Assembly (NCBI GenBank): GCA_023512255.1
Contig: JAILZY010000103.1
Coordinates: forward strand, 1-11,875
Length of the DNA: 11,875 nt
From: a bacterium
Lineage (GTDB): Bacteria > SZUA-182 > DTGQ01
Reading direction: 5' to 3'
Shown here: positions 7,837 through 10,568 of the stretch, piece by piece
Position numbering within the stretch: position 1 is the first letter of the stretch
Layout: each line of letters starts with the position of its first letter
Notes under the pieces: model-generated
Seen by the model: the letters and a program-made list of their open reading frames with translations, nothing else
Database searches by the model: none
What the model was told of the DNA's origin: nothing
Made by a program: the position numbers and the translations under genes

Positions 7837-7893
7837 TTAGGGGAAAACCCTTTTTTTAGGGGAAAACCCTTTTGAAAAAGGGTTTTCCCCTAA
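7837..7893. terminator. Repeated short hairpins and an 18-bp perfect inverted repeat; probable bidirectional terminator after porB
   Basis: TTAGGGGAAAACCC followed by T7 occurs at 7837-7857. By itself it can form a short GGG-AAAA-CCC hairpin with a T-run, a minimal intrinsic terminator. A second copy, TTAGGGGAAAACCCTTTT (7856-7873), is followed after two bases by its exact reverse complement (7876-7893), giving an 18-bp perfect stem. The third, inverted arm reads as the same hairpin-plus-T form on the minus strand, so termination in both directions is plausible. The first copy can also compete for the third arm. No classical T-run follows the long stem on the plus strand. Confidence 0.6.
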
Positions 7894-7943: not shown

Positions 7944-9296
7944 ATGGCTTGGAAGGAACCTTTATTGAATAAGGATCCCTTCCAAACTCCGACGCCCCAG
8001 TTTCTTCCCAGTTTCTTAAAGGACATGACTCGATTTGGCCTCAGTAAAATCAGCTTAAAGATCATCGTTACCATTCTGATTCCGATTATCCTTATGGGAG
8101 GGGCATTTGTCGCTCTATTCATCTACAGTATCACCTCATGGCAATACAATGATATAGCCACCTGCCAAAGCCAGCTGATGGATTTTCTGACCTGTGGTAT
8201 TGAAGACTCCTTTGCCCGGCAGGACTATAGACAAATCAAAGCCAAACTGTCCGAGCTTGGAAGAAGGCTAAATATCAGCCGAATCAGGCTTCTGACCAAA
8301 GAAGGCAAGGTCATCTATAATAGCCAGGCAAAAGATTCTCAAGACAGGGGCAATCCTACAACCCATGAATGTCTTCTTTGTCATAATAGTACCGGTCATC
8401 AACTAGCCCTACCACGGCCAGCGATTCAGGCCTGCGTGTCCGAAGGCAAAAAAATCATCCGACATTTTACCCCGATTTTGAATCAGCAAAATTGCCAGCG
8501 CTGCCACACAGGCAATCAAAAGGTCTTGGGCTTTTTCCTGGCTGATTTTGTCCAACCCAGGGTAGATAAGCGAAAGGCGCTTTTTTTGACTCAAATGGGG
8601 CTTAGCTCGGCTGTTACAATTTTGGTCATCCTGAGCATCCTATATATTACCCTGCGTCGGATGATCGATTATCCGATCCGAGAGATCATTGCCCAGATAA
8701 GGGGGATTTCGGTCATCTCAGGAAATTTGAGGCAGATTGAATATTCCTCAACCGATGAGATCGGAGAGATAGTCAATCTGATCAACGAGCTGGCTGAGCG
8801 GCTGCGCTATTCACGGGAGGAGCTGGCTTCCTGGTACCAGGTGAGTCATGAGATTGTCTCAACCCTTGATTTTGAAAAGCATATCCTGGCTTCCACCCCT
8901 GTCCGAGAGGTTATGGATACAGAGATTGAACTTATCTATGAGGATATGCCGGTGAGAGAGGTGATGGAGCTTTTCAAAAGCAGCCAAGGCATATTCTTCC
9001 CTGTGGTTGATCGACATAGGACCTATCTTGGGGTTATTACCCTGCGCGAGGCGCGGAATGTATTATTGGATCAGAGCCTAGAGGGCATCCTCTACGCTCG
9101 GGACTTCTCCTGCTCTGACTTTCCCACCATCTCGCCCTCAGGAACGCTTTCTGAAGCTATGGACCTCTTCCTGAAGAAGGGGATAAATCATCTGCCGGTA
9201 GTGGATGAGATGACCCAAACCCTGATCGGCATCCTCGAGCATGAGCGTATCTTCCAGGTACTGAAAGCAGAGCTGGTCAAACGGGTAGGGCTTTGA
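7944..9296 (+). CDS. Membrane sensor: dihaem c-type extracytoplasmic domain, HAMP, CBS pair
   Basis: Predicted inner-membrane protein with an extracytoplasmic sensing domain and a cytoplasmic CBS pair. Visible order (residues from 7944): TM1 about 38-62; extracytoplasmic domain about 63-212 with two CxxCH haem-attachment motifs, CLLCH (143-147) and CQRCH (184-188), the second preceded by the FTPILNQQ segment common in haem-sensor proteins; TM2 about 213-237; HAMP about 238-291 with DEIGE (271-275); a helical linker (292-315) like those leading into GAF domains; CBS1 about 317-380 and CBS2 about 385-445, with FFPVVD and LPVVDE. No kinase, cyclase or methyl-accepting domain is present. The CBS pair resembles those of ClC channels (inference). 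Ligand, redox role and output partner are unknown. The start is uncertain: ATG 7944 has AGGAAG with no spacing, and ATG 8025 (27 codons later) has AAAGGA almost adjacent. pgsA follows after 31 bases. Confidence 0.85.
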   Translation: MAWKEPLLNKDPFQTPTPQFLPSFLKDMTRFGLSKISLKIIVTILIPIILMGGAFVALFIYSITSWQYNDIATCQSQLMDFLTCGIEDSFARQDYRQIKAKLSELGRRLNISRIRLLTKEGKVIYNSQAKDSQDRGNPTTHECLLCHNSTGHQLALPRPAIQACVSEGKKIIRHFTPILNQQNCQRCHTGNQKVLGFFLADFVQPRVDKRKALFLTQMGLSSAVTILVILSILYITLRRMIDYPIREIIAQIRGISVISGNLRQIEYSSTDEIGEIVNLINELAERLRYSREELASWYQVSHEIVSTLDFEKHILASTPVREVMDTEIELIYEDMPVREVMELFKSSQGIFFPVVDRHRTYLGVITLREARNVLLDQSLEGILYARDFSCSDFPTISPSGTLSEAMDLFLKKGINHLPVVDEMTQTLIGILEHERIFQVLKAELVKRVGL

Positions 9297-9327: not shown

Positions 9328-9867
9328 ATGACCTTGCCGAATAAGCTTTCTCTAGTTCGAATCTTTCTGGTGCCAGTGCTGGTAACGGTGCTCCTGACCA
9401 GATTCAGCAACCCCCTGGCTCTGAGCATCTTCCTCCTGGCCTCTCTAACCGACTGGCTGGATGGGTATATTGCCAGAAGATCAAAGCAGACAACCACCTT
9501 AGGCAAACTGCTTGATCCGATGGCTGACAAACTCCTGATCTCCTCTGCCCTCATCTCCCTGGTTGAAATGGGGCTAGCTCCAGCCTGGATGGTGGTAGTC
9601 ATTGTCAGCCGAGAGATCGCCATAACCGGCATCCGCTCTGTGGCAGCTTCGCAAGGCGTAGTCATCGCGGCCAGCAGGATGGGAAAGTATAAGGCGGTCA
9701 GTGAAATTCTGGCTATTTCTTTTTTAATTCTGGGCAAGATCCCCTTTCCAATCTTGGGGAATTTTCCCCTGGGGCACATTCTGCTCTGGGTAGCCATGAT
9801 TATGGCTATTGTCTCAGGGATTGAGTATGTGATCAAATTTAACCAGCAGGTCAAGCTGACCAGCTAA
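9328..9867 (+). CDS. pgsA: CDP-diacylglycerol--glycerol-3-phosphate 3-phosphatidyltransferase
   Basis: Integral membrane enzyme that makes phosphatidylglycerophosphate, the committed step to phosphatidylglycerol and cardiolipin. The 179-aa sequence has the complete CDP-alcohol phosphotransferase signature DGx2ARx8Gx3Dx3D: D45, G46, A49, R50, G59, D63 and D67, with D42 also present. The rest is a series of hydrophobic helices, and SREIAITGIRSVA (94-106) is typical of PgsA. The N-terminus MTLPNKLSLVRI fits the family, although no good Shine-Dalgarno sequence precedes it. It follows the sensor gene by 31 bases and precedes plsY, another phospholipid gene. The final codons (AAG CTG ACC AGC TAA) are the first unit of a 23-bp repeat that continues downstream. 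Confidence 0.95.
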   Translation: MTLPNKLSLVRIFLVPVLVTVLLTRFSNPLALSIFLLASLTDWLDGYIARRSKQTTTLGKLLDPMADKLLISSALISLVEMGLAPAWMVVVIVSREIAITGIRSVAASQGVVIAASRMGKYKAVSEILAISFLILGKIPFPILGNFPLGHILLWVAMIMAIVSGIEYVIKFNQQVKLTS

Positions 9868-9971: not shown

Positions 9972-10568
9972 ATGATTGGCCTAAAAGCGCTATTTCTTGG
10001 CATCATAGCCTATCTCCTTGGATCCATTCCCTTCGGCATCCTGATTGCCCGAAGGCATCGGGTTGATATCCAAAAGGTCGGAAGCAAAAATCCCGGAGCC
10101 ACCAATGTACTTCGCACTGTGGGGAAAAAAGCAGCTCTTTTTACCCTCCTTGGAGACCTGGCCAAGGGAGCAGTGGCTGTGCTTTTGGGAAAGGCCTTCT
10201 CAAGCTCTGCAGCTATGGCCGAGGCCCTCGGATTATTAGCCATCATTGGTCATGACTGGTCGATCTTCAACCGACTGCGCGGCGGAAAAGGAGTAGCGAC
10301 CAGCTTGGGAGTTTTTCTTGCCCTCACCCCGGGGCCTACCTTGCTTGCTCTGCTGGTCTGGGGGACAGCTCTTGGCATCAGCCGCTATGTCTCCTTGGCC
10401 TCGATCCTGGCCGCGGCGGCTCTTCCCCTGCTTATCTTTATTTTTCAAGGCACGGGGAGCCTGTTTTTTACCTCACTCGCTGCTTCCGCTCTCCTGATCC
10501 TCAAGCACAGATCAAATATCCAGCGCCTGATAGCCGGCACTGAGCACAAACTCACCCCGCGGCGATAA
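9972..10568 (+). CDS. plsY: Acyl-phosphate:glycerol-3-phosphate acyltransferase
   Basis: Membrane enzyme that acylates glycerol-3-phosphate from acyl-phosphate to give lysophosphatidic acid, the first step of the PlsX/PlsY route. The 198-aa sequence carries the family motifs: GSIPFG (17-22), GSKNPGATNVLR (37-48, usually GSGNPGATN, so G39 is K here), GHDWSIF (93-99) with RGGKGVATSLG (103-113), and KHRSNIQRLIAGTEHK near the C-terminus. About five hydrophobic segments fit the known topology. The ATG at 9972 lies 11 bases after AGGAGA (9955-9960). It is downstream of pgsA, a functional pairing in phospholipid synthesis. The last codons including TAA are the first unit of a downstream repeat. Confidence 0.95.
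   Translation: MIGLKALFLGIIAYLLGSIPFGILIARRHRVDIQKVGSKNPGATNVLRTVGKKAALFTLLGDLAKGAVAVLLGKAFSSSAAMAEALGLLAIIGHDWSIFNRLRGGKGVATSLGVFLALTPGPTLLALLVWGTALGISRYVSLASILAAAALPLLIFIFQGTGSLFFTSLAASALLILKHRSNIQRLIAGTEHKLTPRR

Follow-up and report, generated by a model that had tools for sequence, protein, structure and literature searches.

A rare fusion of a haem-c-type HAMP sensor half with a ClC-type CBS pair, encoded beside pgsA and plsY in one bacterial family

Haem-c sensors of the Cache/PAS type have been described with several outputs, including kinase, MCP, and GGDEF/EAL domains (PMC12889525, PMC3831638). The family with a single haem-attachment motif is named sCache_heme, and NO-sensor properties have been reported for its HAMP-bearing form (PMC12889525). 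Sensors of similar kind with two motifs, such as Gsu0591, Gsu0599, Adeh_2011, and Adeh_3383, have also been reported (PMC3831638); dihaem Cache/PAS sensors themselves are thus already known from Geobacter and Anaeromyxobacter. In related haem-c sensors, axial haem ligation shifts with redox state, and NO is bound (PMC8396549, PMC12889525). The CBS domains of ClC proteins, in turn, regulate the membrane protein to which they are attached, and in CBS2 of the plant protein AtCLCa the residue Asp753 binds the ribose (PMC10423218).

Here, we describe a bacterial gene that joins a half of the first kind to a half of the second. It lies in a window of 11,875 nucleotides (the whole stretch of DNA that was analysed; contig JAILZY010000103.1), in which an open frame of 450 amino acids occupies positions 7944-9296 of the forward strand. 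The true start is probably Met28 at 8025 rather than 7944, because one orthologue (genome G002) has an in-frame TAA directly 5′ of the equivalent Met and the 27 N-terminal residues ahead of Met28 are unconserved among orthologues. The features of the gene and of its two downstream neighbours are as follows.

8025-9296, forward strand: sensor-CBS gene from its probable start at Met28 (423 amino acids plus stop)
8061-8129, forward strand: TM1, residues 40-62 (by hydropathy; conserved in the orthologues)
8130-8579, forward strand: predicted extracytoplasmic dihaem-c sensor domain, residues 63-212 (Cache/PAS-like by homology to haem-c sensor kinases)
8370-8384, forward strand: first predicted haem-attachment motif, CLLCH, residues 143-147 (C, C, and H present in 33 of 36 related sensor kinases)
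8463-8465, forward strand: His174 of RHFxP (invariant in the three orthologues, absent from the 36 related kinases)
8493-8507, forward strand: second predicted haem-attachment motif, CQRCH, residues 184-188
8580-8654, forward strand: TM2, residues 213-237 (by hydropathy)
8655-8813, forward strand: HAMP and the following helix (Pfam match to residues 244-288; kinase homology to residue 301)
8814-8894, forward strand: junction, residues 291-317 (end of the HAMP helix, then the ClC-linker-like EKHILAS)
8901-9068, forward strand: CBS1, residues 320-375 (motif T-L-R/H-E)
9099-9263, forward strand: CBS2 (Arg435 at the ribose-binding Asp position, His in orthologues)
9328-9867, forward strand: pgsA, phosphatidylglycerophosphate synthase (31 bp downstream)
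9972-10568, forward strand: plsY, glycerol-3-phosphate acyltransferase (conserved neighbour)

The architecture, TM-dihaem (predicted)-TM-HAMP-CBS pair with nothing else, is real. An earlier note, made from the letters of this DNA, had read two CxxCH motifs between transmembrane helices, a HAMP domain after them, and a CBS pair as the only recognisable output, and each of these elements was recovered, HAMP just short of its profile cut-off. The CBS pair is matched by Pfam in two tandem stretches (75.2 bits, cut-off 24), and the same search of the protein returned no match to kinase (HisKA/HATPase_c), cyclase, GGDEF, MCP, or Voltage_CLC (PF00654) domains. HAMP is placed directly after TM2 at 23.1 bits against a cut-off of 25 (14.4 bits in an orthologue), and the alignment to HAMP kinases runs unbroken through it up to residue 301. 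AlphaFold models, one for the complete protein and another for its CBS portion, were built from only two sequences and reached a pLDDT of 40, too poor for use.

Two CxxCH motifs appeared by chance in just one of 200,000 residue shuffles, and all of their Cys and His residues are invariant across the three orthologues. Homology to two-TM HAMP sensors, together with a positively charged N-terminal side (4 K/R vs 1 D/E), implies that the motifs would face outside rather than the cytoplasm; the charges flanking TM2 are not decisive for orientation. Cytochrome c assembly genes occur in all five genomes tested, and covalent attachment of two haems is predicted. The second motif sits just before the last strand, with KVLGFFLADF coming next, and in many related dihaem kinases (L023-L049) its place is taken by CX4CH instead of CxxCH. 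His174, present only in the sensor-CBS group, is a candidate distal haem ligand.

A profile built on 36 haem-c sensors of other genomes scores 137 bits over residues 33-301, and the three orthologues behave alike. The Pfam family PF21563 (Mcp40H-20_sensor) scores 22.5 bits (E=1.5e-4), below its curated cut-off of 27, a cut-off that three related kinases (L006, L009, L027) do pass; PF11845 (sCache_heme, Tll0287-like) gave no match at E<=1 and was only weak in relatives. In three genomes of the phylum, haem-c sensor kinases (L012, L014, L015) adjoin a formate dehydrogenase-like molybdopterin oxidoreductase.

For the output half, a profile built on ten ClC tails scores 103 bits over residues 288-446, again with the three orthologues alike, BLAST against several ClC tails gives 30-35% identity beginning at about residue 311, and the top NCBIfam match is a ClcB-like channel, all of which bears out the ClC resemblance first suggested from the letters. 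Judged by these two profiles, the protein reads as a clean fusion of a haem-c sensor kinase half (33-301) with a ClC-type tail (288-446). Because the tail of a Na+/H+ exchanger (L048) bears a related CBS pair (24% identity), the donor would have been a tail of this general type and not surely a ClC gene. A ClC gene of the phylum, as donor or as partner, was rejected, since no ClC channel (PF00654) was found in nine of its genomes; 12 of 14 control genomes have one. Additionally, among the other CBS proteins of the window's genome, none was close enough to be retrieved with the sensor-CBS pair.

The earlier note had also placed a GAF-like entry helix ahead of the CBS pair, a proposal that found no support. 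No GAF profile from Pfam matches the protein at E<=1, and the supposed helix overlaps both the last part of the HAMP helix and the ClC membrane-exit linker, the point from which ClC homology runs. A GAF-derived helix is not needed, as the stretch is largely covered by these two elements; residues 302-310 match neither the sensor-kinase nor the ClC-tail profile firmly, and a trace of GAF ancestry could conceivably persist there.

The search covered approximately 820 distinct genomes, including 386 spread across the bacteria and 395 that belong to one large phylum. The full fusion was confined to three species, representing two genera, of one small family of uncultured bacteria, with the qualification that thresholds were strict in the later scans and that few candidates per genome were scored in the two large ones, whereby a diverged fusion could escape. 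The orthologue in a second species of the window's genus is 77% identical, and that in another genus of the family is 55% identical; the latter comes from a MAG, CSMAG_2299, filed as 'Pseudomonadota bacterium' and presumably from a cold seep, judging by the CSMAG prefix used in PMC10491686. Outside the family, profile matches fall either on haem-c kinases or on CBS tails, which belong to different proteins. Apparent HAMP-CBS spans in nine further genomes proved to be ClC-type channels, viral contigs and phages contained no relative of the sensor-CBS protein, and the sole plasmid match was an ordinary HAMP kinase.

In a third genus (G001), a broken copy lies upstream of pgsA (L105 3308-3618, G001:C182), in which orthologue residues 6-91 (frameshifted) and 410-426 remain around an internal deletion. 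Because this remnant retains both ends at the same place, the fusion must predate the split of these genera and have been lost later in one of them. Between the two congeneric copies, pN/pS is 0.19 overall, 0.09 in TM2-HAMP, 0.06 in the short junction, and 0.21 in the CBS part, values that are approximate given that synonymous sites are near saturation; these intact copies are under purifying selection, strongest where a signal would pass. A literature search, with subscription journals mostly outside its coverage, retrieved no paper joining CBS domains with haem-c HAMP sensors. The domain combination is genuine, conserved, and, in the genomes searched, rare, with both halves already known; the earlier note had likewise taken it for an architecture not known to be described.

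The pgsA-plsY pair lies directly downstream in all four genomes (31, 62, and 37 bp away where the sensor-CBS gene is intact), whereas the upstream genes vary between genera and include the por operon, rnhB, and a Mnh antiporter subunit-like gene. Between porB and the sensor gene, positions 7837-7893 hold a near-perfect 20-bp inverted repeat (fold z-score -5.8), probably a terminator separating two operons, or else a small repeat. Elsewhere in the window, a lone N6/N4 DNA methyltransferase gene (178-1110) precedes dnaX without a visible restriction gene, and some 1.3 kb at the contig end (10569-11875) has no convincing ORF.

The following mechanism is offered as a tentative reading, with the odds as a whole somewhat against it. 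The receptor would combine the sensing half of a haem-c sensor kinase (TM-dihaem-TM-HAMP) with a ClC-type linker and CBS pair. Its periplasmic haems may sense redox state or NO, and altered haem ligation would move TM2 and HAMP; HAMP would then rotate or splay a dimer of CBS pairs positioned beneath the membrane. Lacking a catalytic domain, the CBS dimer could switch a partner protein mechanically, much as CBS domains serve the ClC pore. The likeliest partners, proposed from adjacency, would be the products of the neighbouring genes, PgsA and PlsY, in which case phospholipid synthesis would track the redox state of the envelope. Conserved adjacency by itself does not show that PgsA or PlsY is regulated, and any such control must be dispensable, because the loss of the sensor-CBS gene in G001 leaves pgsA-plsY intact. 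A literature search for CBS domains with CDP-alcohol phosphatidyltransferases retrieved nothing relevant. That an extracytoplasmic dihaem redox or NO sensor steers phospholipid enzymes directly, via a borrowed ion-channel regulatory module and without any phosphorylation, second-messenger, or transcription step, is the boldest form of this proposal, and we regard it as unlikely.

The same receptor may instead act on a partner whose gene lies elsewhere, such as a histidine kinase or some other membrane protein, the adjacency to pgsA-plsY being operon history. Adjacency can last without a functional link, and the phylum's genomes encode several other haem-c HAMP kinases able to pair; nevertheless, the retention of downstream pgsA-plsY in four of four genomes while upstream neighbours change weighs against this alternative, which we consider possible but rather doubtful.

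CBS pairs commonly bind adenosine compounds. Accordingly, a two-sided sensor can be envisaged, in which a small molecule from the cytosol (nucleotide, cofactor, or metal) occupies the CBS pair and is integrated with the state of the haems; CBS1 does retain T-x-x-E, the E of which is also found in two ClC tails. The position corresponding to Asp753 of AtCLCa (PMC10423218), however, is Arg, His, and His in the three orthologues, and for this reason ClC-type binding of ATP or other nucleotides, one of the two couplings suggested in the earlier note, is disfavoured; the other, to a partner protein, is preferred, in the form of a mechanical switch. We judge a two-sided sensor improbable.

A reversed role, in which the haems serve electron transfer in the envelope and HAMP-CBS only anchors or modulates, draws on the redox-like properties of stand-alone haem Cache proteins (PMC12889525). 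It is very unlikely, as TM2-HAMP belongs to the most constrained parts of the protein, which fits signalling, and HAMP is treated as strictly signalling in the same study. A functionless product of decay, accidental fusion, or misassembly, of which the broken G001 copy might be taken as a sign, can be dismissed as extremely improbable, given an intact fusion in three independent assemblies, purifying selection in the two compared, and a G001 remnant whose two surviving ends indicate that it was once complete.

The fusion shows that a ClC-tail-type CBS pair can move onto a HAMP sensor and be kept by selection, which suggests that the CBS module can be driven mechanically by a receptor, besides responding to ligands. 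Were PgsA or PlsY the partner, the redox state of the envelope would be linked directly to the synthesis of membrane lipids.

Compared with the CBS tails of ClC channels and transporters, the protein shares the CBS pair and the linker segment preceding it, whereas the channel domain and the CBS2 ribose-binding Asp are missing. The Na+/H+ exchanger tail has a similar CBS pair, likewise without the CBS2 Asp, but bears an exchanger domain and shares only 24% identity. With the haem-c Cache/PAS sensors (sCache_heme, DUF3365/Tll0287; Geobacter GSU0582/GSU0935), it shares an extracytoplasmic domain between two TM helices, a CxxCH just before the last strand, and a probable HAMP after TM2; unlike them, it has only a CBS pair in place of a kinase, MCP, or GGDEF/EAL output. 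Its sensor half is homologous through HAMP to that of the TM-dihaem-TM-HAMP histidine kinases (L006, L023, L027), which continue beyond this point into HisKA and HATPase_c.
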